From assembly GCA_024697885.1 (NCBI GenBank), contig JAILSA010000026.1, positions 1 to 27,085 on the forward strand: 27,085 nt of DNA, in the 5' to 3' direction. Source of the DNA: Eubacterium sp. (GTDB taxonomy: Bacteria > Bacillota > Clostridia > Lachnospirales > Lachnospiraceae). The notes beneath the pieces were generated by a model. That model was not told the origin of the DNA. It saw only the letters and a list, made by a program, of their open reading frames with translations, and did not search any database. Both the position numbers and the translations under genes were made by a program. How positions within the stretch are numbered: the first letter of the stretch is position 1; every line of letters starts with the position of its first letter. This document shows positions 780-23,038 of the stretch, piece by piece.

Positions 780-845
780 AGACAGGAGTTTTTTCCATAA
801 TGGCTCCTGTCTGTTTTTTATGCCTTGAAATAAGGCGGAAAGGAG
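780..845 (+). promoter_or_regulatory. Module L two-hairpin leader, copy 1 (VWA gene)
   Basis: Hairpin 1 pairs AGACAGGAG (780-788) with CTCCTGTCT (804-812), followed by T6 at 814-819, which looks like a terminator although it lies in front of the gene. Hairpin 2 pairs GCCTT (822-826) with AAGGC (832-836) and abuts the Shine-Dalgarno AAAGGAG (839-845). The same arrangement precedes four other genes. I infer attenuation or translational control. Confidence 0.7.
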
Positions 846-852
846 AAAAGTT

Positions 853-3069
853 ATGGAAGAAAAATTGAAGAAAATGGAGATAGGTACTCTCTTTAAATGG
901 TTAGAGAGAAAATACCTACACATAGTAGGACGCAAAGGTCAAGTAAAATCCGTTCCTAGGGACGAAGACGCTTTGGCGTATACTATGCCAGGAGACAAGG
1001 TGTTTCTCAACGAGAGACATCCTGGCGTGACATCGGTAATCCTCTTGATAGGCTTATTTGTCCATGAATGTATGCACCAGGTGTACACGGCTTTCCAAGA
1101 AAGCCAAAGAACCGGACAGCTCTACAAAGGAGCAGAGCGCTCTCAGTTCCACTCTTTTGCAAATATTTGCGAAGACCCTGCGATTGAGAGAGCAGCCAGC
1201 AAAACTGTAGGTGGCTTTTTGTTGAAGTGCTTATATCAAGCAATAAAACATTTCAGCGACAACGCTGTACCCTTGCAGGACTGTGAACATCCGTATGAAC
1301 AGTTATTGGACGCTTTAATAATGTTCGGAGACACCGGGCGTCTCAAGGGATATTTTACATATCCAGAAGCATACGAAATGTATGTAAAACTTAGGCCTTT
1401 GTTCCTCCAAAACATTATCGAGCCAAACGGGAAAAAGAGGGTCAAACTTCAAAAATTGATGTTCGACGCAACCAAGGACCTAAGAGAGGATTATACGCCA
1501 TCGGAAAATGCTCCAAAGGGTCATTCAAGTCCATCGCTGGGTGACGGGGACGGGCAAGAAAGCCCTATGTCGCAGAAAGAAAAACAGCGCCTCAAAGATA
1601 TGTTGGAAAACTTATCAAAAGAAGAAGTAGAGGCTATGCTAGATGAAAATGGCACTCCAATTTCGCTTGATAGAGAGGATATTGAGCCAACAGGCAAAAA
1701 GAAAACCTCTAAAAACACGAGCGATGATGAAAGCGGCGAAGACGGTGCCGATAACGAGGAAGGTTCTGGTTCTTCTGGTGACGGTTCTGACGAAACGAAT
1801 GAAGAAGAAGGCTCTGGTTCTTCTGGTGACAGTTCCGAGGAGGCTGACGAAGAGGAAGACGCTGGTTCTTCCAGTAGCGGTTCCGACGGTGCTGACAATG
1901 AGGAGGATACTGGTTCTTCTGAGGCTGCTTCCGACGGTGCTGGTGATGATTTTGCAGGAGATAATTCCGATAATTCTTCTGACGAAGGCGAGAACGGAGA
2001 CGGAGCTTCTGACGAATCCAGCGAAGACGGGACTGCCAACAACGCTGAGCAGGACGGAATGACTTGTCCTAACATGGGGCATGTAGCTACCGGCGAAGCG
2101 CAAGGAATTGGCGAGGAGTTTTGGTCTGATGCGGAAATATCCGAAGAAGATGTAGACAAGATTTGCCAGGAAATCGTTGAAATCTCTCAAATAGATGCTA
2201 GTCGAGAGGGGGTCTATGTACCAAAAGACTATCCGATTACATCAGCAAATCTGGAGGGCGTTTCATGCAATAACGAAGTGATTGACATGGAACAAGTAAC
2301 CGATCGTTTGCAGGAACGCTATGAGACCATCGTGGACCAGATGTACGAAGGAATTGAGTACATTTACGAGGAACTTCTAAAACAGTTCAAGGCGGAAAGG
2401 TCTGTTAAATTCAAGGCGAAATCGGGCAAATTAAATGTAATGAGATATTACAGTCCGAAGATCACGCCAAGGATTTTCGACAAAAACACCGACCCCGGCG
2501 ATAAGTCGGACTGTTGTGTTATGTTCGTTGTAGACCAGTCTGGTTCTATGTCCGGGGCCAAAATGGAGGTTACGAGGGCCGCTGTGATTATGGCAGTAGA
2601 GGCTTTAAGTAAACTTGGTATTCCGTGTTATGTCATGGGATTTACCACCGAAGGCGGATACGTAAGTAAGCACCTACATTATGTATGGTGGGAACTTGAG
2701 GAAGAGGCTCGTATTCCACTTGTTTGTATGAATGCGAGAGGTGGAAACATCGATTCTTATGCGACCAGGTACGCTCACGAGCTGTTGAACGAGCGCCATG
2801 AAAAGCATAAGCTTTTGATAACTATCCATGACGGCCTTCCATCTGTCGCTTACGGTTCTTTCGAGGACGCCATAGGCGATTGCGCTAAAAGCGTAGAAGA
2901 AATCCGAGAGGACGATATTTATACCCTCGGGATTGGCGTTGGCGTGCCGGAGAACGACATCCCTCAATTTGAGGCGATTTACGGAGAGGATTTCACTTTG
3001 GTTAACCAAGTAAATGAATTTCCAGAAGAGCTGTGTACTCTTATCAACGATACCGTGGAAACATGGTAG
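853..3069 (+). CDS. CobT-like protein: HExxH metallopeptidase-type domain, acidic linker, VWA domain
   Basis: This 738-residue protein has three parts. The N-terminal part carries H71-E-C-M-H75 followed by N104-I-C-E-D-P-A-I-E112, the arrangement of the putative metallopeptidase domain that accompanies VWA-like domains (DUF2201 type) and of CobT-like proteins. Residues about 280-410 are a low-complexity Ser/Gly/Asp/Glu linker with imperfect GSGSSGD units. The C-terminal part is a von Willebrand A domain with a MIDAS motif D561-Q-S563-G-S565 and a later H-D660-G-L-P resembling the CobT 'ISDGAP' strand. VWA proteins of this kind act with MoxR/CobS-type AAA+ ATPases as metal-insertion or remodelling machines. 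A matching ATPase lies at 17373 behind the same leader. The start is set by AAAGGAG eight bases upstream. Cobalt chelation is not implied: no cobalamin genes are present. Confidence 0.85.
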   Translation: MEEKLKKMEIGTLFKWLERKYLHIVGRKGQVKSVPRDEDALAYTMPGDKVFLNERHPGVTSVILLIGLFVHECMHQVYTAFQESQRTGQLYKGAERSQFHSFANICEDPAIERAASKTVGGFLLKCLYQAIKHFSDNAVPLQDCEHPYEQLLDALIMFGDTGRLKGYFTYPEAYEMYVKLRPLFLQNIIEPNGKKRVKLQKLMFDATKDLREDYTPSENAPKGHSSPSLGDGDGQESPMSQKEKQRLKDMLENLSKEEVEAMLDENGTPISLDREDIEPTGKKKTSKNTSDDESGEDGADNEEGSGSSGDGSDETNEEEGSGSSGDSSEEADEEEDAGSSSSGSDGADNEEDTGSSEAASDGAGDDFAGDNSDNSSDEGENGDGASDESSEDGTANNAEQDGMTCPNMGHVATGEAQGIGEEFWSDAEISEEDVDKICQEIVEISQIDASREGVYVPKDYPITSANLEGVSCNNEVIDMEQVTDRLQERYETIVDQMYEGIEYIYEELLKQFKAERSVKFKAKSGKLNVMRYYSPKITPRIFDKNTDPGDKSDCCVMFVVDQSGSMSGAKMEVTRAAVIMAVEALSKLGIPCYVMGFTTEGGYVSKHLHYVWWELEEEARIPLVCMNARGGNIDSYATRYAHELLNERHEKHKLLITIHDGLPSVAYGSFEDAIGDCAKSVEEIREDDIYTLGIGVGVPENDIPQFEAIYGEDFTLVNQVNEFPEELCTLINDTVETW

Positions 3070-3088
3070 TCCATTTTCTTTTTTCAAG

Positions 3089-3127
3089 AGACCTATCAGC
3101 AGAGAAATCTGTTGATGGGTCTTTTTT
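3089..3127 (+). terminator. Rho-independent terminator after VWA gene
   Basis: A 15-bp stem with two G-T pairs joins 3089-3103 to 3108-3122 across a GAAA tetraloop and is followed by six to seven T. Confidence 0.92.
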
Positions 3128-3155
3128 GTATATAAAACATTTTCTCTTTTTTCTT

Positions 3156-3190
3156 CATAAAAAAAGACACGCATACATGATATCATAGAC
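3156..3190 (+). promoter_or_regulatory. Module A promoter-like block, copy 2 (divergent)
   Basis: The left half CATAAAAAAAGAC and the central TACATGAT are kept at the usual spacing, but the right end reads CATAGAC instead of a TGTA ending. It lies 32 bp before the thermonuclease start. It is the weakest of the ten copies. Confidence 0.4.
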
Positions 3191-3221
3191 AAAATTTTTT
3201 AAACGAAAGGAGAAATAAAAA

Positions 3222-3880: not shown

Positions 3881-3915
3881 CATTAAAAAAGACAGTTTTA
3901 CATTATAATAATGTA
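3881..3915 (+). promoter_or_regulatory. Module A promoter-like block, copy 3
   Basis: CATTAAAAAAGAC is followed at the standard spacing by a perfect 17-bp dyad, TACATTAT-A-ATAATGTA (3899-3915). This copy contains a true TATAAT (3904-3909). It suggests the right half of module A is a TACA-N9-TGTA dyad, either a promoter core or an operator. Confidence 0.55.
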
Positions 3916-4291: not shown

Positions 4292-4294
4292 TTT

Positions 4295-4369: not shown

Positions 4370-5785
4370 ATGACCGAACTGTCTGTAGAAATCTCAATAG
4401 ACGAATATTTGAGAAACAAAGATGATTATTTAAAGGTGGAAGAACTCAAGGTAACTGGCAAGGCCCCGGAAGACTGCTATGGGTTGTTCTCTTGGTTCGA
4501 GGGTGAAAAGTTGGATTTGTCTGGCCTCGACACTAGCAAAGTGACAACCATGGAATGTTTCCTCAAGAATTGCCATAACCTAAAAGAAGTAGACCTGGCA
4601 GACCTCGACACTAGCAATGTGACGAATATGTATGGGTTTTTCGAGAATTGTGAATCCCTAGAAAAAGCCAATCTAACAGGCCTTAATGCCAGCAAAGTGA
4701 AAGATATGGCATTTTTCTTCTATAATTGTGCTTCCCTAGAAAAGGTAGACCTCTCAAGCCTTGACACTAAAAATGTGACGCATATGAGCGCTTTCTTTGA
4801 TGGTTGCAAGTCCTTAGAAGAAGTCAACTTATCGGGTCTTGATATCAGCAATGTGGTAGGTATGAACGATTTCTTCAATGATTGTGGTTCCCTAGAGAAG
4901 GTGGATTTGTCAGATGTCAAAATTAGTGAACAAACTGGAATTGACGGAAAATCTTTATTTTATTACAACAGATGTTGGGATATGGAATGTATCACAAACA
5001 GCCCCGAAGTGGAAAAGTTTATTGACGAATATCAAGAAAAAACAATTACTGTGGAAGAATTACTAAAAGACATAGAAGAAAATACAGAACTTTACAATGA
5101 GCGTGAGGGTAAATATCAAAATTGCTTTTGTCTAAAAGTAACCGGACAGGCACCAAAAGATTGTGGAAATTTATTCTATGGATATAAAGGAAACTACTTG
5201 AATTTATCCGAACTCGATACAAGTCAAACAACGGATATGTATGGTATGTTTTGGGAGGCAAGTGAATTATTGGCGATTAAAGGTATTGAGGACTTTGATA
5301 CATCCAAGGTAACAACCATGCACAATATGTTTTCTAATTGCCATAACTTAACTGATTTAGATTTAACCAACTGGGACACTAGCCAGGTAACGGATATGGG
5401 AAGTATGTTCCACCAATGCATGGAATTAGCGATAGAACAAAATTTCGACACTTCCAATGTAACCAATATGAGATGTATGTTTGAAGAAAATTATTACTTA
5501 CAAAACAACTTGCAAAATTTCGACACATCAAAAGTGAAAAACATGGAGAGAATGTTTAGTTCATTAAGCGAAGGCATGACATGGCCAGATCAAATTGACC
5601 TCTCCAGCTTCAACTTGGAAAATTGCGAAAATACAAATTGTATGTTTTTGGGCGTAGACGCTGAAATTATCGCAAGCGACCCTAAAATTATAGATGCCGT
5701 AGAACTTGAACAAGACAGACTAGAAGAACAGGAAAAAAACATATACATTGAAATTAAAAATGATATGGAAGACATTGACTATTGA
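4370..5785 (+). CDS. DUF285 (BspA-like) repeat protein with two repeat modules
   Basis: This 471-residue protein has no signal peptide. It opens with a short cap (EISIDEYL ... KVTGKAPEDC) followed by about six repeats of 26 residues built on 'FFxNCxSLEEVDLSGLDTSNVTNM'. From about residue 218 a second cap (VEELLKDIEEN ... LKVTGQAPKDC) starts a new set of about five repeats, so the gene looks like a fusion of two DUF285 units. It ends with the family tail (AEIIASDPKIIDAV and a terminal MEDIDY). DUF285 repeats are leucine-rich-repeat-like solenoids best known from Mycoplasma and Clostridia surface lipoproteins, but nothing here would export this one. The start is backed by AAAGGAG at 4357-4363. 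The molecular role is unknown; protein or nucleic-acid mimic binding is plausible. Confidence 0.85.
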   Translation: MTELSVEISIDEYLRNKDDYLKVEELKVTGKAPEDCYGLFSWFEGEKLDLSGLDTSKVTTMECFLKNCHNLKEVDLADLDTSNVTNMYGFFENCESLEKANLTGLNASKVKDMAFFFYNCASLEKVDLSSLDTKNVTHMSAFFDGCKSLEEVNLSGLDISNVVGMNDFFNDCGSLEKVDLSDVKISEQTGIDGKSLFYYNRCWDMECITNSPEVEKFIDEYQEKTITVEELLKDIEENTELYNEREGKYQNCFCLKVTGQAPKDCGNLFYGYKGNYLNLSELDTSQTTDMYGMFWEASELLAIKGIEDFDTSKVTTMHNMFSNCHNLTDLDLTNWDTSQVTDMGSMFHQCMELAIEQNFDTSNVTNMRCMFEENYYLQNNLQNFDTSKVKNMERMFSSLSEGMTWPDQIDLSSFNLENCENTNCMFLGVDAEIIASDPKIIDAVELEQDRLEEQEKNIYIEIKNDMEDIDY

Positions 5786-5795: not shown

Positions 5796-5830
5796 CATTA
5801 AAAAAGTCATTTTTACATGATGATATTGTA
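5796..5830 (+). promoter_or_regulatory. Module A promoter-like block, copy 4
   Basis: CATTAAAAAAGTC, TACATGAT and ATTGTA occur at the standard spacing, immediately before a module L leader. Confidence 0.55.
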
Positions 5831-5844: not shown

Positions 5845-5905
5845 TGACAGGAGCTTTTTTCTCATAAGGCTCCTGTTTTTTTATGCCTAAAAGGCGGAAA
5901 GGAGC
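5845..5905 (+). promoter_or_regulatory. Module L two-hairpin leader, copy 2 (5911 operon)
   Basis: Hairpin 1 pairs ACAGGAGC (5847-5854) with GCTCCTGT (5869-5876) and is followed by T7. Hairpin 2 pairs GCCT (5885-5888) with AGGC (5892-5895) next to the Shine-Dalgarno. The 3' arm GCTCCT is also perfectly complementary to AGGAGC at 5900-5905, which contains the Shine-Dalgarno, so an alternative blocking pair is possible. Confidence 0.7.
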
Positions 5906-5910
5906 TAATT

Positions 5911-6132
5911 ATGAGAGAGATTATGAAAGATTTCTTGGAAATCTTACGAACCTTGGTGGAGTTAAAAGAGATTTCCCCCGAAGATCGGAAACGTTTCTTG
6001 GCGGTGGCGGTGTCTGAAATGGACTGTTACCCTAAGAAAACATTCTCTTTATGCAGAGAAATATTGAAATTTTCTGTGCTAAGAGAAGAGATAGAGATTC
6101 TAATCGAAAGGGGAAATGAATTATGGCCTTGA
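5911..6132 (+). CDS. Small helical hypothetical protein, 73 aa
   Basis: A 73-residue charged, probably all-helical protein with no recognised domain, signal peptide or membrane segment. It sits directly behind a module L leader, with AGGAGC six bases before the ATG. Its last codons overlap the next gene by 10 nt (6123-6132), which suggests translational coupling with the 408-residue protein. Because it is the first gene behind this leader, any control by the leader would act on both proteins. Function unknown. Confidence 0.75.
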   Translation: MREIMKDFLEILRTLVELKEISPEDRKRFLAVAVSEMDCYPKKTFSLCREILKFSVLREEIEILIERGNELWP

Positions 6133-8178: not shown

Positions 8179-8219
8179 CTTATATACAAAAAACATTTCT
8201 TTTCAAGCTATGATATAAT
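8179..8219 (+). promoter_or_regulatory. Module B promoter, copy 2
   Basis: CTTATATACAA (8179-8189) is followed by an extended -10, TGA-TATAAT (8211-8219). The resulting transcript would begin about 160 bases before the RecD2 gene and include the structured leader. Confidence 0.6.
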
Positions 8220-8247
8220 AATTATGTAACTAATATTTTTATTTTTA

Positions 8248-8378
8248 CATGCTTTGGTATTCACGCCATAGCAAGCACCACCAATGGATTTTTACATCAC
8301 GGGCCGTAAAGCCATTGGTCAAACCTCCCTATATGCCTGGTGTCATACCAGGCTGGGGAGATATTTTAGAAAGGAAGA
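8248..8378 (+). promoter_or_regulatory. Structured 5' leader of the RecD2 gene
   Basis: The leader holds at least two strong hairpins. One has an outer stem ACCAATGG (8280-8287) with CCATTGGT (8312-8319) and an inner stem TTTAC (8291-8295) with GTAAA (8306-8310). The other pairs GCCTGGT (8335-8341) with ACCAGGC (8347-8353), flanked by CTCCC (8325-8329) and GGGAG (8356-8360). A weaker pair GCTTTGG/CCATAGC lies at 8251-8272. The Shine-Dalgarno AAAGGAAG is at 8370-8377. The layout resembles a cis-acting regulatory RNA, but I cannot match it to a known class. Confidence 0.55.
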
Positions 8379-8384
8379 GTATCT

Positions 8385-12682: not shown

Positions 12683-13237
12683 CTAAAGCATGAAATCTTC
12701 CAGACTGGAATCCACTTCATCACTTGTAATACCAATATACCTTAAAGTAATCGAAGGAGAAGAGTGATTAAACAATATCATTAAGAGGGCCACATTGTGA
12801 TAAGTCTTGTAATGCCAATAACCGAAAGTTTTGCGAAGGCTGTGTGTACCGATATTGTCAATACCGATATCCTGGCAAACGCCATGAAAGACACGCCAGA
12901 CCGTTTGACGCATAAGAGGTTGATTTTGTCCTTTTCGGCTCTGGAATAAATAATCACCTTCCTCTAAATGTTTTGTTTCAATATAGTCTCTAATTTCTTT
13001 TTGCAAATTTTTATTTAGCAAAAGACGGTTATGTTTTCCCGTCTTTTTTTCTTTTAGTTCCAAATGTCCCTTATCCTGTAAATCATCTACCTTGAGATGA
13101 AGGAGATCCGAAATACGAAGCCCGGTATTGATACCTAGAACAAAAATCAAATAGTATTTCAAATCGTATTCTTCCTTCAATAAAGTCTTAATGATTTTTA
13201 TGGATTTCTTGTCTCGAATCGGCTGCACATATTTCAT
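12683..13237 (-). CDS. Tyrosine recombinase, catalytic domain only
   Basis: This 184-residue protein starts at the complement of 13237, behind GGAG. All catalytic residues are present, counted with one extra N-terminal residue from an upstream TTG: R42 in 'TGLRISDLL', a lysine in 'KEKKTGKH' (K65/K66), H133-S-L-R136, H159 in 'LFNHSS', and Y168 in 'ITLRYIG'. The core-binding and arm-binding N-terminal domains of normal integrases are missing, as in FimB/FimE-type and other small Xer-like recombinases that invert or resolve short segments. The start lies within the preceding small gene, so the two are coupled. It may act on the dyad repeats at 13487-13630 or elsewhere. Confidence 0.9.
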   Translation of the reverse strand: MKYVQPIRDKKSIKIIKTLLKEEYDLKYYLIFVLGINTGLRISDLLHLKVDDLQDKGHLELKEKKTGKHNRLLLNKNLQKEIRDYIETKHLEEGDYLFQSRKGQNQPLMRQTVWRVFHGVCQDIGIDNIGTHSLRKTFGYWHYKTYHNVALLMILFNHSSPSITLRYIGITSDEVDSSLEDFML

Positions 13238-13442
13238 CAAGGTCCACTCCTATCTTTTTTAGTTGTTCGCAAATTTCCTCAACAGTTTCTTTTTCAGAAA
13301 AACTATTGCTCCAATGTAGCCACAAAATCTTCCATTCGATATATGAGATTATATCGCAAAAAGTTTCATATCGTTTCAAGTCTCGTTCCCGGTCACGCAA
13401 GGTTTCCACTTCTCGCAACAAACGCAACAATTTTAAGTGCAT
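13188..13442 (-). CDS. Small helical protein upstream of the recombinase, 84 aa
   Basis: This is an Arg/Glu-rich, all-helical protein with no recognised family. It overlaps the recombinase start by about 50 nt and has an AGAGGG-type Shine-Dalgarno. A good - strand promoter sits 36-64 bp upstream of its start. By position it could be a recombinase partner (perhaps replacing the missing N-terminal domain) or a regulator of the divergent promoters. That is inference. Coding is supported by location, length and ribosome site, not by homology. Confidence 0.6.
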   Translation of the reverse strand: MHLKLLRLLREVETLRDRERDLKRYETFCDIISYIEWKILWLHWSNSFSEKETVEEICEQLKKIGVDLDEICAADSRQEIHKNH

Positions 13443-13712: not shown

Positions 13713-14822
13713 ATGCAAACAATTCATATTAACGATTACCAAAAATTGACTGGTAAAGAATTACAGAACGATTTGAAGATCGTGGGCCAGGCTCCACGTT
13801 CCTGTGCGGAGATATTTCGAGAGTTCAAAGGAAAGGCATTAGACTTATCTGACCTCGACATGAGTGCAACGGTAGATGTCAGTCGGATGGTGGCAGGATG
13901 TGAAAATTTAACAAGTCTGACTTTTCCCAAGCAAGAAAGTCACCCAGTATATTTAGACTATATGTGTGCGGGCTGTAAAAGTTTGACTACCATTGACCTC
14001 GCTGGCATAAAGACAGACCAGACAGTACGAGCAAGAGGAGCATTGTTGAATTGCACCTCTTTAGAGGAAGTTGACTTAGGGGGCCTAGACACCAGTTCTT
14101 TACGAGATGCAAGAGAGGTGTTTGCAAATTGTGAGCAATTAAGGGATGTGAACCTGGCCGGGGTTTCTGGCCCTCAGCTAATTAGCGTATCGGGTATCTT
14201 TGAAAATTGTAAAAGTTTAACGGAAATTGATTTAAGTGATTTTCAGTCGAACCAGATGAAAGATATGAGCGAAGCCTTTGCTGGGTGCCAGGCATTAAAA
14301 GAGGTAAAACTTCCTGCTCTTGAAAGCAAGGATTTGTTAGATTTATCTTCCCTGTGTGAAGACTGCCATGAGTTAGAGCATATAAATATAGGAAATCTGG
14401 ATACCTCTGCTGTCGTTGATATGAGTTCCATGTTGGAAAATTGTCGAGCGCTAGAAGATATAAACGCTTGTATATCTGGATTAGAAACAAACAATGTTCG
14501 GGACTTTAGTAGAACTTTTTACGGATGCGAAGCTGCAAAGACCTTAAACCTTTCCGATTTTGATTTATCAAATGCTTTGTATTTAGATGGTCTTTGCGCA
14601 GAATGTTCCTCTTTAGAAAGAGTAAACGCACAAACGCTCCAACTCGATAACGCTTTAACGACAGAACATATTTTTGATGGATGCCTTAATCTGGGCGAAG
14701 TTGTTTTGCCGGAAAACAGAAATGACAAACTAAAAACGATAGAAGCGCAAGCAGAAATTCAAATACATCATTACAACGAGATCGCTGCTCCCGAACTCGA
14801 AGCCAACGACTTAGAATTGTAA
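13713..14822 (+). CDS. Divergent DUF285-like repeat protein, 369 aa
   Basis: The N-terminal part keeps the family cap in changed form ('IHINDYQKL', then 'KIVGQAPRSCAEIFREFKG' and 'LDLSDLDMS'). About ten repeats of 25-26 residues follow, with the core 'C-x-x-L-x-x-[VI]-[DN]-L' and far fewer 'DTSNV' matches than the others. It lacks the AEIIASDP and DIDY tail shared by the other five and ends 'AAPELEANDLEL', still acidic. There is no signal peptide. AAAGGAGAGG at 13696-13705 sets the start. Its separate promoter beside the recombinase and its divergence suggest an older or separately acquired member. Role unknown. Confidence 0.8.
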   Translation: MQTIHINDYQKLTGKELQNDLKIVGQAPRSCAEIFREFKGKALDLSDLDMSATVDVSRMVAGCENLTSLTFPKQESHPVYLDYMCAGCKSLTTIDLAGIKTDQTVRARGALLNCTSLEEVDLGGLDTSSLRDAREVFANCEQLRDVNLAGVSGPQLISVSGIFENCKSLTEIDLSDFQSNQMKDMSEAFAGCQALKEVKLPALESKDLLDLSSLCEDCHELEHINIGNLDTSAVVDMSSMLENCRALEDINACISGLETNNVRDFSRTFYGCEAAKTLNLSDFDLSNALYLDGLCAECSSLERVNAQTLQLDNALTTEHIFDGCLNLGEVVLPENRNDKLKTIEAQAEIQIHHYNEIAAPELEANDLEL

Positions 14823-14925: not shown

Positions 14926-16578
14926 GTGATGGTATCTAACGAAGAAAGACATGAGTTTTTAAAAAAAGTTCAAGAAGCGGCCAAGGGAGCAACCGGAAAA
15001 ATCAATAATCCATCGGGTGTCGTAGTATTCGACACGGAAACAACTGGACTGGATTTTGATGATTCAGAGATTATACAGTTTTCTGCCATGGACGGGGACG
15101 GGAATGTTTTGCTTGACACTTTAGTACGACCTTATTGGTCCAAAGAGTGGCCAGAAGCAGAAAATATTAACCATATTTCCCCGGAAATGACAGCAACAGC
15201 ACCATATCCACACGAAATCGCAGCGAAGGTAAAAGAGATATTTAATTCAGCTGACACCCTTGTAGCCTACAACGCACCTTTTGATTTAACCATGCTTAAA
15301 TCTTGGGGAATTGAAGAACAGGAAGGGCAAAGAAGATTTGATGTTATGGTGAATTTTGCGTTTATCTACGGCGAATGGAACGACATGCGCCAGGATTACA
15401 AGTGGCAGAAATTGGTAAAATGCGCTGATTACTACGGTTATGACAAAGTTTTTTGCGATGGCACGAAAGCCCATGATAGTTTGGAAGATGTACGAGCAAC
15501 CTTATATTGTTACAATAAAATATTAGAACCATTAGAAGTGACAGTAGATGAATTAGTAAGAGACCAAAAAGAAAACAGCGAACTTTACTCTATGAATTGT
15601 GGAAAATACCAAAGAAACTATAATCTCAAGGTGACTGGTAAGGCTCCGAAAGACTGCTCTGATTTATTATCAGGGTTCATGGGAGAGAAGTTGGATTTAT
15701 CTGAATTGGACACAAGCGAAACGACAGATATGAGCTGTTTTCTCGCAGATTGCCCTTCCCTAAAAGAGGTAAACCTAACAGGGCTTGATACTTCCAATGT
15801 GACGAATATGCAAGGCTTCTTCGATAATTGCAAATCCCTAGAAGAACTGGATTTGTCAAGCCTCGATACTAGCAAGGTGACAGATATGCATTCGTTTTTT
15901 GAAAAATGCTATTCTCTAACAGAAGTAGACCTAACAGGCCTTGACACTTCCAATGTAACGGATATGGATAGTTTCTTCGCCGGTTGTGGTTCCCTAGAAA
16001 AGGTGGATTTGTCAAGTCTTAACACCAGCAACGTGGCAAATATGGGCTGGTTTTTCGAGGATTGCAATTCCCTAGAAGAAGTCAACCTGGCAGGCCTTGA
16101 TACTAGCAATGTATGGAATATGAGCTGTTTCTTCGATAATTGCCATTCCCTAAAAGAAGTTGACCTGGCAGGTCTTGACACCAGTAAAGTAGAGAATATG
16201 TGCTATTTCTTCGAAAATTGTGAATCCCTAGAAAGGGTAGATTTGTCAGACCTTGACACTTCCAATGTGACAAAAATGTATAGCTTCTTCGAAAATTGCC
16301 GTTCCCTAGAGGAAGTAGACCTAACAAACCTTAACACCAGTAATGTAAAGGATATGAACTATTTCTTTTCAAACTGCAAATCCCTTAAAAAACTCGACCT
16401 CTCCAGTTTCAATTTAGAAAACTGTGAAGATACAGATTATATGTTTGAAAATGTGCAAGCCGAAATTATAGCAAGTGACCCAAAAATTATTGATGAAGTA
16501 AAATTTGAACAAGACAGACCAAAAGAACCGGAGCAAGATATATTTCTTGAAAATGACATAGACGATATAGATTATTGA
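14926..16578 (+). CDS. DnaQ-like DEDDh exonuclease fused to DUF285 repeats
   Basis: Residues about 30-200 form a complete DnaQ/DEDDh 3'-5' exonuclease domain: Exo I D36-T-E38, Exo II 'AYNAPFD120', and Exo III H183-D-S-L-E-D188. From about residue 208 a DUF285 cap (VDELVRDQKEN ... LKVTGKAPKDC) begins, followed by about nine 26-residue repeats and the common tail ending IDDIDY. The joint is clean: each half would be complete on its own. No signal peptide is present, so the solenoid must work in the cytoplasm, presumably targeting the nuclease or being controlled by it. The start is GTG 14926 or ATG 14929; AAAGGA ends at 14915. It forms an operon with the DUF285 gene 23 nt downstream. Fusion of these two domains is not something I know from described families. 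Confidence 0.92.
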   Translation: MMVSNEERHEFLKKVQEAAKGATGKINNPSGVVVFDTETTGLDFDDSEIIQFSAMDGDGNVLLDTLVRPYWSKEWPEAENINHISPEMTATAPYPHEIAAKVKEIFNSADTLVAYNAPFDLTMLKSWGIEEQEGQRRFDVMVNFAFIYGEWNDMRQDYKWQKLVKCADYYGYDKVFCDGTKAHDSLEDVRATLYCYNKILEPLEVTVDELVRDQKENSELYSMNCGKYQRNYNLKVTGKAPKDCSDLLSGFMGEKLDLSELDTSETTDMSCFLADCPSLKEVNLTGLDTSNVTNMQGFFDNCKSLEELDLSSLDTSKVTDMHSFFEKCYSLTEVDLTGLDTSNVTDMDSFFAGCGSLEKVDLSSLNTSNVANMGWFFEDCNSLEEVNLAGLDTSNVWNMSCFFDNCHSLKEVDLAGLDTSKVENMCYFFENCESLERVDLSDLDTSNVTKMYSFFENCRSLEEVDLTNLNTSNVKDMNYFFSNCKSLKKLDLSSFNLENCEDTDYMFENVQAEIIASDPKIIDEVKFEQDRPKEPEQDIFLENDIDDIDY

Positions 16579-16601: not shown

Positions 16602-17240
16602 ATGACCGAGATTTCCATAGACGAGTATCTAAACAACAGAACTAATTTTTTAGATGATTATTTAAGAGTAAAAGAACTCAAGGTAACCGGCAAGGCTCCA
16701 AAAGACTGCTCTGGATTATTCTCCGGGTTCAAAGGCGAAAAACTTGATTTGTCTAAACTAGACACCAGTGAAACGACAGATATGTGCTATTTTTTCGCAG
16801 ACTGTCCTTCTCTAAAAGAAATCAACCTAACAGGCCTTGACACAAAAAATGTGACGAATATGGAAAGCTTCTTCGAGGATTGCCATTCCCTAAAAGAAGT
16901 CAACCTGGCAAGCCTTGATACCAGTAAAGTAGAGAATATGCGCTATTTCTTCGATAATTGCAAATCCCTAGAAGAAGTTGGTCTAATAGGCTTTGATACT
17001 AAAAATGTGAAAAATATGCTCTGTTTCTTCTTTGGTTGTGAATCCATAAAAAAACTTGACCTTTCCAGTTTTAATTTAAAAAAATGTAAATTTACAAATT
17101 GTATGTTTACAGATGTAAAAGCTGAAATTGTGGCAAGTGACCCAAAAATTATGGATGCTGTGAGACTTGAGCAAGAAGAACAAGAAGGAATGGAGCATAT
17201 TATATCCATTAAAAATGATATAGACGACATTGATTATTGA
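16602..17240 (+). CDS. Short DUF285 repeat protein, 212 aa
   Basis: This is the shortest family member: cap 'MTEISIDEYLNN ... KVTGKAPKDC', about four 26-residue repeats (DTSETTDM, DTKNVTNM, DTSKVENM, DTKNVKNM), then the terminal unit and tail ending IDDIDY. AAAGGA lies 8 bases before the ATG. It is 23 nt behind the exonuclease fusion and lacks its own promoter, so the two are co-transcribed; its cap and repeats resemble the fusion's C-terminal half, which suggests local duplication. No signal peptide. It could compete with or partner the fusion's solenoid, but this is inference. Confidence 0.85.
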   Translation: MTEISIDEYLNNRTNFLDDYLRVKELKVTGKAPKDCSGLFSGFKGEKLDLSKLDTSETTDMCYFFADCPSLKEINLTGLDTKNVTNMESFFEDCHSLKEVNLASLDTSKVENMRYFFDNCKSLEEVGLIGFDTKNVKNMLCFFFGCESIKKLDLSSFNLKKCKFTNCMFTDVKAEIVASDPKIMDAVRLEQEEQEGMEHIISIKNDIDDIDY

Positions 17241-17249: not shown

Positions 17250-17284
17250 CATTAAACAAGACATCTTCACATGATAATAGCGTA
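17250..17284 (+). promoter_or_regulatory. Module A promoter-like block, copy 6
   Basis: CATTAAACAAGAC, CACATGAT and AGCGTA occur at the standard spacing. Apart from a base or two it matches copy 10 in front of the Rad50-like gene. Confidence 0.55.
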
Positions 17285-17299: not shown

Positions 17300-17365
17300 T
17301 GACAGGAGCTTTTTTTCATAAAAGGCTCCTGTCTATTTTTTATGCCTAAAAAAGGCGGAAAGGAG
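17300..17365 (+). promoter_or_regulatory. Module L two-hairpin leader, copy 3 (MoxR gene)
   Basis: Hairpin 1 pairs GACAGGAGC (17301-17309) with GCTCCTGTC (17325-17333) and is followed by a T-run at 17336-17341. Hairpin 2 pairs GCCT (17344-17347) with AGGC (17353-17356). The Shine-Dalgarno AAAGGAG is at 17359-17365. Confidence 0.7.
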
Positions 17366-17372
17366 TTCTATT

Positions 17373-19022
17373 ATGAACATAAATGTAACAAAAAAAGAGA
17401 TTTTGGAAGAGAAAAGCGGTGACGCTGTAGTAGTCTGCGAGGACGGGGTTCACGAGATCGGAAGCCGTGGGCCAAGCGTCTTTTCGGAAACAAGGAAGAA
17501 GACCGTTCAGGCAGGCTTTGCAAAAGTTCCTTGTGTGTGGAACACGGCAGGAATTGCTGCAAATGCTGTTATGGCGAAAGGCCTGAATAAAGCCTTCGTT
17601 GTAAACGAGGATACGGTAATGGTGTCTGGCGAGGGATATGACGATGCCGGATTTTCGGCAATGCTCGTAGAAAATGTTTTGACAACGAGCGTCCCAATTA
17701 TATCGCCAGTCGCTATGATAAGCGCCATGGTGGTAATTCTTGCGGATATCGCTCGTAAAAACGACGAGTTGCAGGAATTACTAAAAAAGGCGTTTTTTGA
17801 AAGGAACCAGAATGGCGCCATGTCTTCTTTCGTTGCAATTAAGATTTGCGATATTGCGTTACACGCAATGGAAGAGGAGTATGTAATCCAGGAAATGGAT
17901 AAGGAGACCATAGACGCAAGCCTTGAACAAGCGGTCTCTGTGAACGCTGCGAAAAAGATAGCGGACGGAGAGGGTATGGATGAAATGTTTCCGTGTCCAA
18001 GTATCCGTGAGTTGGAACAAAAGACAATTTCCGCTGGCGGAAGCGGAACAGCATTATACATGAAGTCACCACAAGAAATTTTGGAGATGGCAAAAGAGGG
18101 CAAATTCGTTGTCAATGCTCCGTTGGCAGAGGATATGAGGCAACAAGTTCCACCGTTGACGGAACTCGATTTGTATGTGCCAACAGAGGAGTTTAAGGAG
18201 TTTCTTCTAAAATGCGTGAGGGCCTTAGACCGTATTCAATGTAGAGTGGAATGCGGAAAAGAAAGCCTATTGGAACAACTCGGTTCCGATGTGGTTAACG
18301 CCTGTGCGCTTGGCGGACCGGGAACGGGTAAATCTACCATGTTCCACATGGCGGCCGCTGCGCTGCAATTACCTCATTCCATTAAAACGTTGTCTCCAGA
18401 CAGCGAGGAAAGTGATTTCCAAGGAGTGAATGTAGTGGTAAACGGGCAAGTACAGACGGTTGACCCAGAGATTCTCAAGGCCTTCCAAAGTCCGGGGATC
18501 CTCACCATGGAGGAAATCAAGCAGGCAAGGCAGCCATTGCTTATGAGTATGGTGTCGCAAATGCTTGAAGCTCCGTACTTCATTGCTAAAAACGGAACGG
18601 AACGAATTTATCGTCACCCTCTTTGCATCGTGACGGCAGCGTTTAACCCGTCAGCCGAGGGCGAAATCTATAATGCGACGAAGGACCGTTTCGGTACTTA
18701 TTATCGTATTGAGGAGCCAGAAACGGAGAAGATGCAGGAAATGTTGCAGTTAAAGGGCTATCCGAGAGAGCATGTAGAATGGGTGTACCATATGCACTTG
18801 AAGATAAAGAACTTTTTGAAGGGCAACAAGAAGTATCGTCGGCTTGTAGAGTTAGCGTCTCCTCGAAGGTGTCTGGCAGCCTTACAGTATTTGCAGGAAA
18901 TTCCTGTAAAAGGCTCCGAATACACAGCGATACGGAGAACAATGATTGACCTCTTTGAGGACGACACGCTTCGAGAAGGCTTGCTCGACATGATTTCAGA
19001 CGAGCCAGCGCTGTTTGAGTAA
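17373..19022 (+). CDS. MoxR/CobS-type AAA+ ATPase
   Basis: This is a 549-residue protein. The C-terminal ~250 residues are an AAA+ module of the AAA_5/MoxR type: Walker A G314-G-P-G-T-G-K320-S-T, sensor 1 'VTAAFNPS', arginine-finger segment 'KDRFG', and sensor 2 'ASPRRCL'. The Walker B strand reads 'GILTMEE' (E380, E381) instead of the usual 'FIDE', so the metal-coordinating aspartate is replaced by glutamate. The N-terminal ~300 residues do not match anything I recognise and may bind substrate. MoxR ATPases work as rings with VWA-domain partners. The CobT-like VWA protein at 853 has the same A-block and leader, so I infer the two form a pair. It is a single-gene unit ending in a strong terminator. 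Confidence 0.88.
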   Translation: MNINVTKKEILEEKSGDAVVVCEDGVHEIGSRGPSVFSETRKKTVQAGFAKVPCVWNTAGIAANAVMAKGLNKAFVVNEDTVMVSGEGYDDAGFSAMLVENVLTTSVPIISPVAMISAMVVILADIARKNDELQELLKKAFFERNQNGAMSSFVAIKICDIALHAMEEEYVIQEMDKETIDASLEQAVSVNAAKKIADGEGMDEMFPCPSIRELEQKTISAGGSGTALYMKSPQEILEMAKEGKFVVNAPLAEDMRQQVPPLTELDLYVPTEEFKEFLLKCVRALDRIQCRVECGKESLLEQLGSDVVNACALGGPGTGKSTMFHMAAAALQLPHSIKTLSPDSEESDFQGVNVVVNGQVQTVDPEILKAFQSPGILTMEEIKQARQPLLMSMVSQMLEAPYFIAKNGTERIYRHPLCIVTAAFNPSAEGEIYNATKDRFGTYYRIEEPETEKMQEMLQLKGYPREHVEWVYHMHLKIKNFLKGNKKYRRLVELASPRRCLAALQYLQEIPVKGSEYTAIRRTMIDLFEDDTLREGLLDMISDEPALFE

Positions 19023-19076: not shown

Positions 19077-19111
19077 CATTAAAAAAGACATTTTCACATG
19101 ATGATATTGTA
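19077..19111 (+). promoter_or_regulatory. Module A promoter-like block, copy 7
   Basis: CATTAAAAAAGAC, CACATGAT and ATTGTA lie at the standard spacing. It is close to the consensus and begins two bases after the T-run of the preceding terminator. Confidence 0.55.
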
Positions 19112-19125: not shown

Positions 19126-19190
19126 AGACAGGAGCATTTTTTCCATAACAGCTCCTGTCTATTTTTTTGGCCCCAAAAGAGGGCAGAAAG
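19126..19190 (+). promoter_or_regulatory. Module L two-hairpin leader, copy 4, with compensatory changes
   Basis: Hairpin 1 pairs AGACAGGAGC (19126-19135) with GCTCCTGTCT (19151-19160) and is followed by T7. Hairpin 2 pairs GCCC (19170-19173) with GGGC (19181-19184). In the other four copies this stem is GCCT/AGGC, so both sides changed together and the pairing is preserved. The loop sequence also differs. Confidence 0.75.
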
Positions 19191-19200
19191 GAGATAAGTT

Positions 19201-20229
19201 ATGGAGAACACAAATGAAAGAATCATCTTAGAGGTAAGAGGAGAGACATCAAACAACGGAGGCGTTCCTCATTTTGCGGTATGCAAACCAGAAGCTAATA
19301 TTCCGGCCTGGGTTGCTGGTGACATGCCATTCAAGGGCGTCCTCGAACTGCTAAATTTAGAGTTCGAAATTTTTGACGACGACGACAAGGAAGAAAAATC
19401 GTCAGCGCTCGCTCAGGAGGCCATCCAGTTAGAGGTGTGTGAAGCAGAGAAGGAGGTCGTAAATGGCGGAACTATTCCAATATTTGCTGTGAGCAAACCG
19501 GATAGTAATGTCGCTATTTGCATTCCAACCGAAATGCCGCTTGAGGTTGTCCTTGAGCTGGTTAAGGATAATCTTGAAAACATTGACGAGAAAAAAATAA
19601 AGTCAGCGTTGTCCGATTATGAGGAGGTACAAAAAAACTTGTTCGTAAAGACAGTAAATTCTGACATGAACGAGGAATTACTAAAGAATCATCCACATAA
19701 AAAAGTGGACGATCTTGCGCTGATTGCCTGCGTTTGTGTCAAGAATGACGAGGAAGGTATCCATAGCACCTACGTGACCCAGGAGTTATTGAAAGACTGG
19801 AAAAAAACGCCGGAAGAGGTCATTGAGGCGGCAATAGACAACACGCCAAATGTGTTGTCGCCGTCCATAATGCGCTTGGGGGATATGCTGAGTGCAATAC
19901 TAGGACCAGGGGCAGAAGCTGTTTCAGAAGAAGCCTTTATTCCCCTCATTGTAACAGCGGGTACGGGATGCTATGGCGCTTCTTGTATTTTTGCACCGGG
20001 CATCTTGGAGGATATTGCCAAAAGGATGGGTGGTTCTTCATTCTATCTGATTCCAAGTAGCGTGCATGATTGGTTTGTGCTACCGTCATGTATCGCAAAA
20101 ACAAGCAAGACAAACATAGTCGATACTATTTCGTCTGTGAATAAAAGGTTGGAACCAGATGAAATCCTGTCAACGCATGCGTACAAGGCGAGACAGGAAA
20201 ACGGTGAATGGAAATTGATTTCCGCTTAA
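19201..20229 (+). CDS. DUF5688-like protein with duplicated N-terminal segment
   Basis: Residues about 145-342 resemble DUF5688, a family common in Lachnospiraceae mobile DNA: 'DDLALIACVCVK', 'TQELLKDWKKTPEEVIEAAIDNT', 'TAGTGCYGASCIFAPGILEDIAKRM', 'FYLIPSSVHDWFVLP', and 'LSTHAYKAR' near the end. The first ~130 residues hold two copies of a ~40-residue unit ('GGVPHFAVCKPEANIPAWV ... MPFKGVLELL' and 'GGTIPIFAVSKPDSNVAIC ... MPLEVVLELV'), which is not the usual N-terminus as I know it. The protein is acidic and soluble. The family's activity is not known to me. It sits behind module A and module L with AAAGGAG at 19188-19194, so it belongs to the same presumptive regulon as the VWA and MoxR proteins. 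Confidence 0.82.
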   Translation: MENTNERIILEVRGETSNNGGVPHFAVCKPEANIPAWVAGDMPFKGVLELLNLEFEIFDDDDKEEKSSALAQEAIQLEVCEAEKEVVNGGTIPIFAVSKPDSNVAICIPTEMPLEVVLELVKDNLENIDEKKIKSALSDYEEVQKNLFVKTVNSDMNEELLKNHPHKKVDDLALIACVCVKNDEEGIHSTYVTQELLKDWKKTPEEVIEAAIDNTPNVLSPSIMRLGDMLSAILGPGAEAVSEEAFIPLIVTAGTGCYGASCIFAPGILEDIAKRMGGSSFYLIPSSVHDWFVLPSCIAKTSKTNIVDTISSVNKRLEPDEILSTHAYKARQENGEWKLISA

Positions 20230-20533: not shown

Positions 20534-21637
20534 ATGACAGAGATCACGATAGACGAGTATCTGAAAAATAAGGATGATTATTTGGAAGTAGAAGAACTCA
20601 AAGTAATTGGTAAGGCCCCGGAAAGCTGCCGTAATTTATTTGCAAATTTCAAGGGGAAAAAGGTGGATTTGTCTGAATTGGACACAAGCGAAACGACGGA
20701 TATGAACTGTTTTTTTGATGATTGCTATTCTCTAAAAGAAGTAAACTTAACAGGCCTTGACACCAGCAAGGTAGTGGATATGTATGCCTTCTTCTGTAAC
20801 TGCCGCTCCCTAGAAGAGGTAGACCTATCAGACCTTGACACCAGCAAGGTAACGAATATGGAATATTTCCTCTCAGGCTGTGAATCCCTAAAAGAAGTTG
20901 ACCTAGCGGGCCTCGACACTAGCAATGTAACTGATATGAGAGGTTTCTTCTCAGGCTGTGAATCTCTAAAAGAAGTTGACCTAGCGGGCCTCGATACTAG
21001 CAAGGTGGAAGATATGCACTGTTTCTTCAAAGATTGTGATTCCCTAGAAAAAGTCAACCTGGCAGGCCTTGACACTAGCAATGTATGGAATATGGAGGGT
21101 TTCTTCTTTGGTTGTGAATCCCTAGAAAAGGTAGACCTATCCGGTCTTGATACTAGCAAGGTGTCATATATGAACTGTTTTCTTGCAGATTGTTATTCCC
21201 TAAAAGAGGCGGATTTGTCAAACCTTGATACTAGCAATACGAAATATATGATACGTTTCTTCGAAAATTGCGAATCCTTAAAAGAAGTCAACCTAGCAAA
21301 CCTTGATACCAGTAAAGTGTGGAGTATGAACTGCTTCTTCTGTAATTGTGAGTCTCTAGAAAAGGTGGATTTGTCAGGCCTTAACACTAGCAAAGTGGAA
21401 GATATGGAAGGCCTTTTCTACAAGTGCTTTTCCCTAGAAAAACTTGACCTCTCCAGTTTTAATTTAGAGAATTGCGAAAATACACATTGTATGTTTGCAG
21501 GTGTAGAGGCTGAAATTGTAGCAAGCGACCCTAAAATTATTGAAGCTGTAGAATATGAACAGGAAAGACAAGAAAAGGGATATGATATGTGTATTTGGAA
21601 TAATATTGAAAATGCGATAGAAGACATTGACTACTGA
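20534..21637 (+). CDS. DUF285 repeat protein with about ten repeats, 367 aa
   Basis: Cap 'MTEITIDEYLKN ... KVIGKAPESC', about ten 26-residue repeats ('FF-x-x-C-x-SLEEVDLSGLDTS-x-V-x-x-M'), terminal unit 'LDLSSFNLENCENT', and the family tail ending IEDIDY. It has the longest uninterrupted array in the window. Two adjacent repeats are almost identical in DNA, which points to recent unit duplication. There is no signal peptide and the protein is strongly acidic. AAAGGA eight bases upstream sets the start. Expected fold is a right-handed or LRR-like solenoid with one cysteine per turn. Role unknown. Confidence 0.88.
   Translation: MTEITIDEYLKNKDDYLEVEELKVIGKAPESCRNLFANFKGKKVDLSELDTSETTDMNCFFDDCYSLKEVNLTGLDTSKVVDMYAFFCNCRSLEEVDLSDLDTSKVTNMEYFLSGCESLKEVDLAGLDTSNVTDMRGFFSGCESLKEVDLAGLDTSKVEDMHCFFKDCDSLEKVNLAGLDTSNVWNMEGFFFGCESLEKVDLSGLDTSKVSYMNCFLADCYSLKEADLSNLDTSNTKYMIRFFENCESLKEVNLANLDTSKVWSMNCFFCNCESLEKVDLSGLNTSKVEDMEGLFYKCFSLEKLDLSSFNLENCENTHCMFAGVEAEIVASDPKIIEAVEYEQERQEKGYDMCIWNNIENAIEDIDY
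20871..21003 (+). repeat. Near-identical tandem 78-bp repeat units
   Basis: Segments 20871-20925 and 20949-21003 differ at only two of 55 positions, both silent or near-silent, and are offset by exactly one 78-bp repeat unit inside the DUF285 gene. Confidence 0.85.
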
Positions 21638-21646
21638 TTTCCTTCA

Positions 21647-21681: not shown

Positions 21682-21714
21682 AAATGATTTTTTTAAACGA
21701 AAGGAGTGACGGAT

Positions 21715-22227: not shown

Positions 22228-22880
22228 TAGACCAGTCTCGGATAGACAGAATAAAAGACTATTGGGACGGTGCCTCGGTGGCAGATTTGATAGATTTGCC
22301 ATACGACCCTAAAACAAAAAGATACTGCTGTCCAAAGCATCACGATTCACACCCGTCAGCGACGGCCAAAGATTACGGTCTTATGTGCTGGGCGGGCTGT
22401 GGTGCCATTGATGTAATAGAAATGGTAGAACTCGTAAAGGGATATCGTTTCCATGAGGCAGTACAGTTTCTCGAACAAGAGGCAGGTTTTTCGCAAGAAG
22501 TTCTGATGCCAAAAAAGACCTGCCCTCTCAACGAGGAAGAACTTCATGTCATAGGATTAAATAACTCCAAACCTGGCATGATGGTAAAAAAGTCGCAGAC
22601 GGATAGCGCAAAAGAGAGAGGAACATATATCAAAAAATCGTCAGAAGAGGGCGAGGACGCACCTCGATTTGATATATACGAACCAGTTCGTATGCGAATA
22701 TCCGACTTGTATTCGGATAATCCAGAAGCGACAAAAAAAATGATGCATGACCATGCCATAGAAAGCGTTTGCTATTATACAAGCGAAATGCTGGAAGCAG
22801 AAGACGACATGATCAAGCAGTTTTTCCGTGAACAAGTGAAAAAAACTTACAAAATCATGGAAAAATTGCAAAACGCATAA
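22224..22880 (+). CDS. DnaG-type CHC2 zinc-finger protein without a primase catalytic domain
   Basis: Residues 30-90 match the primase CHC2 zinc finger: C36-P-K-H39, then 'SHPSATAKDYGLMC55-W-A-G-C59-G' and 'DVIEMVELVKGYRFHEAVQFL'. In DnaG the second pair is C-x2-C; here it is C-x3-C. The remaining 130 residues are charged and helical, and no Toprim domain is present, so this 218-residue protein cannot be a full primase. Such stand-alone fingers on mobile elements may load or recognise DNA for a primase encoded elsewhere. AAAAGGAGG (22208-22216) lies just before the ATG, which overlaps the stop of the preceding gene. A strong terminator follows. Confidence 0.85.
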   Translation: MIDQSRIDRIKDYWDGASVADLIDLPYDPKTKRYCCPKHHDSHPSATAKDYGLMCWAGCGAIDVIEMVELVKGYRFHEAVQFLEQEAGFSQEVLMPKKTCPLNEEELHVIGLNNSKPGMMVKKSQTDSAKERGTYIKKSSEEGEDAPRFDIYEPVRMRISDLYSDNPEATKKMMHDHAIESVCYYTSEMLEAEDDMIKQFFREQVKKTYKIMEKLQNA

Positions 22881-22886
22881 AAAAAG

Positions 22887-22921
22887 ACAGTTCTCCTTAA
22901 AGTTGGAGGACTGTTTTTTTT
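22887..22921 (+). terminator. Rho-independent terminator after the CHC2 gene
   Basis: ACAGTTCTCC (22887-22896) pairs with GGAGGACTGT (22905-22914), with one G-T pair, and is followed by T8. Confidence 0.92.
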
Positions 22922-22923
22922 AA

Positions 22924-22958
22924 CATTAAAAGAGACATCTTCACATGATAATAGCGTA
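22924..22958 (+). promoter_or_regulatory. Module A promoter-like block, copy 10
   Basis: CATTAAAAGAGAC, CACATGAT and AGCGTA lie at the standard spacing, immediately before module L copy 5. Confidence 0.55.
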
Positions 22959-22972
22959 GAAAAATTTTTAGC

Positions 22973-23031
22973 AGACAGGAGCGTTTCCATAGCGGCTCCT
23001 GTTTTTTTATGCCTAAAAAAGGCGGAAAGGA
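22973..23031 (+). promoter_or_regulatory. Module L two-hairpin leader, copy 5 (Rad50-like gene)
   Basis: Hairpin 1 pairs ACAGGAGC (22975-22982) with GCTCCTGT (22995-23002) and is followed by T7. Hairpin 2 pairs GCCT (23011-23014) with AGGC (23020-23023). The Shine-Dalgarno region AGGAGC (23028-23033) is complementary to the GCTCCT in hairpin 1. Confidence 0.7.
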
Positions 23032-23038
23032 GCTTGTT

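Follow-up and report, generated by a model that had tools for sequence, protein, structure and literature searches.

A repeated leader RNA with a terminator-like hairpin and a gene-fitted loop before five genes of a Eubacterium sp. contig

Transcription attenuators with sequestration of the Shine-Dalgarno sequence (SD) are a known class in Firmicutes, and the element described here resembles them in its mutually exclusive hairpins, its terminator with a U-run and the masking of the SD. It is a leader RNA present in five copies on a contig of Eubacterium sp. (JAILSA010000026.1, assembly GCA_024697885.1); the whole contig, 27,085 nucleotides (nt) long and labelled C35 in a 1.79-Mb bin of 302 contigs that is 79.5% complete, is the window of this analysis. 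The leader differs from the known class in that one cassette is repeated with its loop fitted to each gene, in that the five copies have no shared leader peptide on reading, and in the lack of room upstream for a classical antiterminator.

A tested precedent for read-through is AlpA of Pseudomonas aeruginosa, a protein reported to recognise sites in its target promoters and to let the polymerase pass a terminator, that of alpB beginning 54 nt behind the start site (PMC7969949). The likeness to AlpA and lambda-Q would consist of an intrinsic terminator between promoter and gene, a promoter DNA site that decides read-through, and one factor for several operons; the difference is that here the 3' half of the terminator would also mask the SD and the start codon, and the factor is only presumed. 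FourU thermometers, one of which has been reported in a prophage of B. subtilis (PMC10586365), share with the leader a U-run that pairs with the SD in a short stem; the leader differs because its U-run also follows a terminator hairpin, a temperature response is predicted for 2/5 copies, and Rfam gives no match. Rfam 15 had 0 matches at gathering score in the window, copies 3 and 4, when scanned permissively, matched families below that score only, and in the openly licensed full texts searched nothing described this element by title or abstract start. Overall, the leader looks like a variant of known attenuator and sequestor leaders that is itself apparently undescribed.

The strongest signal, absent from the preliminary description of this DNA, is the complementarity between the first hairpin of each leader (H1) and the gene that follows: the stretch formed by the H1 loop and the 3' arm can pair with the SD, start codon and first codons of its own gene, and the differences between loops track codon 2 (TCCAT/ATGGA, CTCAT/ATGAG, TTCAT/ATGAA). 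The loop and gene sequences that face each other are TTTTTTCCATAA and TTATGGAAGAAAAA in copy 1, CTCATAA and TTATGAG in copy 2, TTCATAA and TTATGAA in copy 3, TCCATAAC and GTTATGGA in copy 4, and TTTCCATA and TATGGAAA in copy 5. The preliminary description had placed the same leader before five genes, and all five lie within 0-3 nt of where it put them, each with the terminator-like hairpin, the T-run and the small hairpin touching the SD that it had named. The order of parts is constant: a promoter/operator-like block (module A), 15-18 nt, H1, a T-run (T6-7), the small hairpin H2, the SD GAAAGGAG, and the start codon 6-7 nt on. The RNA can be read as three segments, in which segment 1 would be the SD-like GACAGGAG, segment 2 the H1 loop and 3' arm (U-rich, with CAUAA in four copies, CAUAG in copy 5, and GCUCCUGU), and segment 3 the genuine SD together with the AUG and the initial codons. 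The features are as follows.

728-762, forward strand: module A of copy 1, promoter/operator-like block, 0 mismatches
781-811, forward strand: hairpin 1 of copy 1; segment 1 at 781-788 (GACAGGAG), segment 2 (anti-SD/anti-start) at 789-808
814-845, forward strand: copy 1, T-run 814-819, hairpin 2 at 822-836, SD 837-845; gene start 853, CobT-like VWA
837-867, forward strand: segment 3 of copy 1, with SD, ATG and initial codons, complementary to segment 2
5896-5925, 17357-17387, 19185-19215, 23024-23053: segment 3 equivalents of copies 2-5
5796-5830, forward strand: module A of copy 2, dyad TTTTACA-N9-TGTAAAA
5846-5876, forward strand: hairpin 1 of copy 2; segment 2 at 5854-5874
5877-5904, forward strand: copy 2, T-run, hairpin 2 at 5885-5895, SD 5896-5904; gene start 5911, operon of 73 and 408 amino acids (aa)
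17250-17284, forward strand: module A of copy 3
17301-17333, forward strand: hairpin 1 of copy 3; segment 2 at 17309-17330
17336-17365, forward strand: copy 3, T-run 17336-17341, hairpin 2 at 17344-17356, SD 17357-17365; gene start 17373, MoxR-like AAA ATPase
19077-19111, forward strand: module A of copy 4
19127-19159, forward strand: hairpin 1 of copy 4; segment 2 at 19135-19156
19162-19193, forward strand: copy 4, T-run 19162-19168, hairpin 2 at 19170-19184 (GCCC/GGGC), SD 19185-19193; gene start 19201, DUF5688
22924-22958, forward strand: module A of copy 5
22974-23002, forward strand: hairpin 1 of copy 5; segment 2 at 22982-23000
23003-23032, forward strand: copy 5, T-run 23003-23008, hairpin 2 at 23011-23023, SD 23024-23032; gene start 23039, Rad50/SMC-like ATPase

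Regarding its energy, the pairing of segment 2 with its own start amounts to -13.3, -12.6, -6.3, -14.1 and -14.4 kcal/mol in copies 1-5, a sum of -60.7 kcal/mol that only 1/120 permutations of loops over starts reached, namely the true one (mean -46.4). Shuffled loops paired as well in 0, 8, 130, 2 and 0 of 2000 cases; among 23 gene starts, the own start ranked 1st for copies 1, 2 and 5, 2nd for copy 4 and 9th for copy 3, and the best pairing between upstream region and start separated the 5 leader genes from 13 others (p = 0.003). In a local fold H1 is present and, a further point missing from the preliminary description, AAAGGAG is paired with the U-run across H2. Extending the folded sequence by the start codon and 35 nt of coding sequence makes copies 1, 2 and 5 refold: the loop and 3' arm of H1 give up the 5' arm for the SD, the AUG and the initial codons. 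In copy 4 the two folds tie, and copy 3 retains H1. The energies of the H1 fold and of the mask fold are -25.6/-27.8, -28.9/-27.2, -33.1/-20.6, -27.2/-27.1 and -24.7/-29.5 kcal/mol for copies 1-5 (mask minus H1: -2.2, +1.7, +12.5, +0.1, -4.8); the two folds are mutually exclusive and within 5 kcal/mol in 4/5 copies. As in translational SD sequestration, SD and start are predicted to pair with an upstream anti-SD in an exclusive fold, weakly so in copy 3. The SD is predicted to be unpaired with a probability of 0.10-0.22 in the 5 leader genes vs 0.25-0.98 in 12 other window genes (p = 1.6e-4).

The preliminary description held that loops vary while stems are kept: leaving T-run and SD aside, 20/22 columns of the two stems are invariant vs 9/43 others (Fisher 8e-8), so the copies have diverged from each other, yet hardly in their stems. 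The arms of H1 are invariant in the 5 copies (GACAGGAG/CTCCTGT), as would follow from the need of the 3' arm to match both the 5' arm (segment 1) and the SD. The pattern GACAGGAG-N6-22-CTCCTGT has 5 forward matches in the bin, all on this contig and all the known leaders, which bears out the view that the leader occurs nowhere else in the window; the reversed control gave 0 matches. A covariance model built from the 5 copies (R1) found no sixth copy in the bin, the next best match having 23.6 bits vs 75-98 once the five copies and their own reverse strands are set aside. Shuffled sequences folded as well in 0/200 cases for four copies and 11/200 for copy 5; the H1 energies range from -14.1 to -20.6 kcal/mol, against -8.6 to -26.3 for neighbouring terminators. 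A compensatory change had also been claimed for H2 of copy 4: one pair has truly passed from U-A to C-G, whereas the neighbouring U-G pair is lost, and, being one pair in one copy that 87/500 shuffles equal, it is too weak as proof. Better proof comes from the loop following each start codon and from both-sided changes in a relative of the leader.

This relative was found with R1 among 298 other genomes of the family, where only the genome G722 had matches at E <= 0.001: two copies, scoring 40.8 and 36.3 bits and both located 13 nt downstream of a TATAA-type -10 sequence, with the same order of parts and an SD unpaired with a probability of 0.07-0.11. H1 is here GACAGATCA/TGGTCTGTC and H2 GCTC/GAGC; compared with the window, 4/9 H1 pairs and 2/4 H2 pairs are changed on both sides and every pair is kept. 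The covariance-model search proposed in the preliminary description gave stems changed on both sides in G722, although no further copy in the bin; this covariation supports the predicted structure and is not decisive, because the model search favours paired candidates. The leaders are alike in the -10 sequence, the GACAG-based hairpin, T8, the GC hairpin, GGAARGGAG, the start, and a mobile-element-type operon including DUF5688; those of G722 differ by a shorter H1 and no anti-start loop. Behind one G722 copy stands an intact operon of DUF932, DUF5688, YqaJ and RecT genes, with an actin-like protein next; the other copy is followed by a DUF932 gene of which only codons 1-32 are present. DUF5688 is thereby linked to the leader twice, once in the window and once in the G722 operon.

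Among DUF932 orthologues of 18 other genomes (20 upstream regions besides those of G722, one ending early at a contig end), the two-hairpin leader occurred in 0/19 complete upstream regions, L480 having an H1-like hairpin alone. Four DUF932 orthologues of other genomes (L483, L485, L489, L491) carry another kind of hairpin just behind a TAT(A)-rich, -10-like stretch, the 3' arm of this hairpin lying over the SD; the SD is unpaired there with a probability of 0.26, 0.00, 0.21 and 0.00, respectively.

Other searches with R1 covered genome samples that partly overlap (61, 298 and 391), with stricter filters whenever more than 40 genomes were searched. Over 61 genomes (own and 60 relatives), 34 had a match at E <= 1, about as expected by chance. 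At L153, in a genome of the same genus (G008; 28.6 bits, E 0.026), a hairpin, T7, a GCCC/GGGC hairpin and AGAAAGGAG are followed by a start 7 nt on; its SD is unpaired with a probability of 0.20, and it precedes a secreted-looking protein. It is only a candidate relative, since 1-2 matches are expected in 61 genomes at that E-value. Over 391 other genomes of the order, the five matches at E <= 0.003 were three plain terminators and two junctions of terminator and SD. R1 had no match in a 32-kb stretch of pRUMAL01 with three homologues of leader genes; at E <= 0.05 it had none around the DUF5688 genes on pCY186 and pCY360 or the VWA gene of pRUMAL01, and none in the stretches searched of two phage records of faecal origin (best 20.7 bits, E 0.07).

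In IMG/VR, the pattern GACAGGAG..CTCCTGT matched at least 120 stretches, none with the whole leader among the matches listed. A stricter pattern returned possible relatives before a phage gene read as scaffold (L182/L183) and an ssb gene (L184/L187). A general occurrence of the two-hairpin form in phages (L182, L183, L210, L246, L253, L272, L311) was discarded, as the patterns themselves demanded a GCC/GGC hairpin; looser phage patterns, with counts near the reckoned chance, were not counted as relatives, and neither were the Streptococcus phage ClpP-capsid junctions, which share only hairpin, T-run and SD with the leader. In an unselected but size-limited sample, tandem hairpins occurred in 0/117 places and SD-adjacent hairpins in 12/117, vs 3.3 expected. 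The preliminary description had seen an undescribed cis-regulatory RNA that groups five genes. The shared cis-acting leader is well supported and has no Rfam family at gathering score, but the leader does not define the five genes generally, given the DUF932 operon behind it in G722 and the homologues without it in the 32 kb of pRUMAL01.

As for module A, it precedes H1 in all five copies, as had been described, and the pattern made from the five leaders has zero-mismatch sites solely at those five places. In all, 10 module A blocks point at gene starts, 5 with a leader and 5 without one (genes at 3222, 3926, 14926, 20534 and 21706, where the block runs straight or nearly straight to the start); an eleventh member of the repeat family D7, at 4292, belongs to another cassette and was omitted from the count. 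Besides the dyad of copy 2, the block has the dyad TACATTATAATAATGTA at 3899-3915, and it looks like a promoter with an operator, its promoter role being one that we infer. Regarded as a target of the Q/AlpA type, module A with its dyad is common to all five leaders, yet it also precedes five genes without a terminator. The short cassettes at 3222 and 21706 read AAACGAAAGGA where copies 2 and 3 read AAACTGACAGGAG, so that the H1 5' arm occupies the SD position of the short form. A separate terminator ends just upstream of module A at copies 1, 4 and 5.

A second promoter-like cassette, TTTCTTATATACAA, stands at 4289, 8173, 10815, 26002 and 26918, before other genes (BspA-type leucine-rich-repeat (LRR), RecD2, 219-aa), with a TATAAT-type hexamer downstream in several copies; at <=1 mismatch it has nine sites in the bin, five of them in the window. 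Another repeated leader, CGGTnCAGG...AGCCGACACCyAAACATAAGAAAGGA, lies at about 26040-26105, before the LRR gene at 26106, and at about 26975-27060, behind that same gene. The long intergenic stretch 24900-25095 holds the inverted repeat GTTAAGGGATAACAGTC/GACTGTTCCCTTAAC with further apparent pairing and is possibly a structured RNA, and the 5' region of the RecD2-like helicase gene (8200-8384) is repeat-rich and structured-looking on reading.

The two folds, their near balance in 4/5 copies and the gene-specific complementarity are computed; termination, the transcript start, the role of module A, the factor and the signal are what the following mechanism supposes. These observations can be joined in one mechanism, which we favour tentatively, at a little below an even chance: a three-segment leader RNA that would lock its gene twice, by a promoter-proximal terminator and, where H1 failed, by a translational mask. 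Segments 1 and 2 would form H1, which with the U-run would be an intrinsic terminator 15-18 nt behind module A. H1 would form first, co-transcriptionally, and most transcripts should end at about 50-60 nt. Should H1 fail and the polymerase escape, segment 2 would be free to pair with segment 3 and hide SD and AUG. This mask could form only once SD and AUG exist; it would act on escaped RNAs, and not as an antiterminator before the T-run. Nothing upstream of H1 was seen to compete with it, and a fold that needs the SD and start 3' of the terminator cannot act before the terminator is transcribed. An RNA that escaped with H1 formed would bear only the weaker mask of the SD by H2 and the U-run, and its gene would be expressed, because H1 holds segment 2 off the SD; the simplest ON path would therefore be an antitermination factor loaded at the promoter, in lambda-Q or AlpA style, with which the polymerase passes the terminator although H1 has formed, presumably in answer to a physiological signal.

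Several points weigh against this double lock. In copy 3 H1 has a clear advantage of 12.5 kcal/mol, and the loop pairs poorly with the start (7 pairs, 130/2000 shuffles, own start 9th/23); the preferred fold of copy 2 depends on the length of coding sequence supplied; and the five copies are paralogues, so that the loop-start tests are not independent and their figures were not multiplied. With the T-run forced single-stranded, the SD is still masked in copies 1, 2, 4 and 5, and the main mask in these copies is thus something other than the U-run. The GC-containing hairpin with T6-7 lies between module A and gene in 5/5 copies; a strict terminator scan scores H1 with the T-run in copies 2 and 3, which speaks for termination, but does not list H1 of copies 1, 4 and 5. 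The sigma-A-like matches in module A are weak (9-10/12), and a clean sigma-A promoter could not be shown. The G722 leaders lack the start mask (the H1 fold is better by 6-7.5 kcal/mol), and also an SD-like segment 1, so an SD-decoy role of this segment as a general feature was set aside. No candidate antitermination factor was recognised among the window proteins scanned, and no signal was identified. Finally, junctions of terminator and SD recur elsewhere, so H1 alone proves nothing.

The main rival, unlikely although to be taken seriously, is a purely translational switch, in which H1 is an anti-sequestor, the SD-mimic segment 1 engages segment 2 and so denies it access to the real SD, the U-run is retained because it pairs with the SD and not as part of a terminator, and a protein or RNA binding segment 1 shifts the leader to the masked state. 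It draws on the same loop-start complementarity, on the position of segment 1 in copies 2 and 3 at the SD of the cassettes at 3222 and 21706, and on the U-run/SD pairing in the fold with H1 and H2; however, H1 with U6-7 has the anatomy and energy of a terminator, and G722 keeps H1 and the T-run while lacking both the SD-like segment 1 and the start mask. The same U-run pairing might suggest a thermometer of FourU type, in which heat would open the pairing of U6-7 with AAAGGAG. Between 20 and 52 °C the predicted accessibility climbs from 0.04 to 0.43 for copy 3 and from 0.14 to 0.35 for copy 4, but practically not in copies 1, 2 and 5, and FourU was not among the Rfam scan matches, which makes this reading very improbable.

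A constitutive 5' stem-loop, for which STAB-SD is the comparison, would protect the mRNA and set low expression without regulation; the stable hairpin near the presumed 5' end and the strong GAAAGGAG SD agree with it, but it predicts neither an invariant T-run nor a loop fitted to its own codons, and we regard it as rather improbable. That H1 is an ordinary terminator before an ordinary gene start, with H2 and the loop match as accidents of a recently copied promoter cassette, comes close to the refuting possibility named in the preliminary description. The intermediate-scoring matches elsewhere, being plain terminators (L148, L500, L503) or terminator and SD without H2 (L501, L502), and the hairpin counts of the unselected sample speak for it; yet at copies 1, 4 and 5 H1 is not the terminator of the upstream gene, since another already precedes module A, and the divergence of loops over constant stems, together with the permutation and shuffle tests, leaves it little chance. 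The least probable reading is that the leaders are five trans-acting small RNAs, each about 55 nt long, and that leakage accounts for expression of the downstream gene: the promoter-like block directly followed by a terminator-like hairpin would fit it, but the loops differ between copies and fit their own gene, so a shared trans target is unlikely.

Regarding the genes behind the leader, copy 1 precedes a CobT-like VWA protein (PF11775 CobT_C, 8.3e-13), copy 2 the 73-aa/408-aa operon of no known family, copy 3 a MoxR-like AAA ATPase (PF07728, 4e-11), copy 4 a DUF5688 protein (8e-47) and copy 5 a Rad50/SMC-like ATPase (PF02463, 4e-14). A word-based search of 5.8 billion proteins gave no homologue for the 408-aa protein; for the MoxR protein, 7998 candidates were scored and four of them were homologues (27-30% identity). 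Ruminococcus albus 7 has, within 14.5 kb of its plasmid pRUMAL01, counterparts to the Rad50-like (26% identity), MoxR-like (26%) and CobT-like VWA (29-32%) proteins as well as a leucine-rich-repeat protein, so the leader unites genes that are near neighbours on another megaplasmid; the difference is that the stretch examined there has no leader, and that identity is only 26-32%. DUF5688 is present on the Butyrivibrio plasmids pCY186 and pCY360. The window is probably a plasmid-like mobile element; its composition, unlike that of most sampled bin contigs, is only suggestive (GC content 0.40 vs 0.42-0.52 for the 13 contigs that were readable, a tetranucleotide correlation of 0.75 with these contigs pooled, 3/13 deviating more than the window).

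The window also has six BspA/DUF285-type LRR genes with 78-nt repeats (4370-5785, 13713-14822, 14926-16578, 16602-17240, 20534-21637, 26106-26888), the one at 14926 being joined to an RNase_T-type exonuclease domain (PF00929, 2.9e-14), and, at 12683-13442 on the reverse strand, a short tyrosine recombinase (185-aa open reading frame, PF00589, 6e-25) overlapping an upstream 84-aa frame in another phase. Another bin contig (L463, G000:C286) has ParA-, ParB- and ssb-like proteins by reading of the translations, and homologues of the SNase (52%), exonuclease (44%) and CAP (31%) proteins of the window; it is perhaps part of the same or a sister element.

In conclusion, a wider proposal, possible and at present doubtful, is that the leader is a leak-proof attenuator cassette, in which the 3' half of the terminator is also a gene-fitted anti-start, RNAs that escape by H1 failure would be untranslatable, and protein would come solely from read-through with H1 formed. 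By this means a megaplasmid-like element would bring four proteins under one signal: a MoxR ATPase with its VWA partner, a Rad50-like ATPase and a DUF5688 protein. Attenuators leak, and a terminator whose failure automatically engages a translational mask would be a compact fail-safe. If the proposal is true, a mobile element could carry a single control cassette to another gene and afterwards adapt the loop to the start codon there; the MoxR, VWA, Rad50 and DUF5688 proteins would also be marked as one functional unit, which would make the roles of these little-known mobile-element proteins testable.

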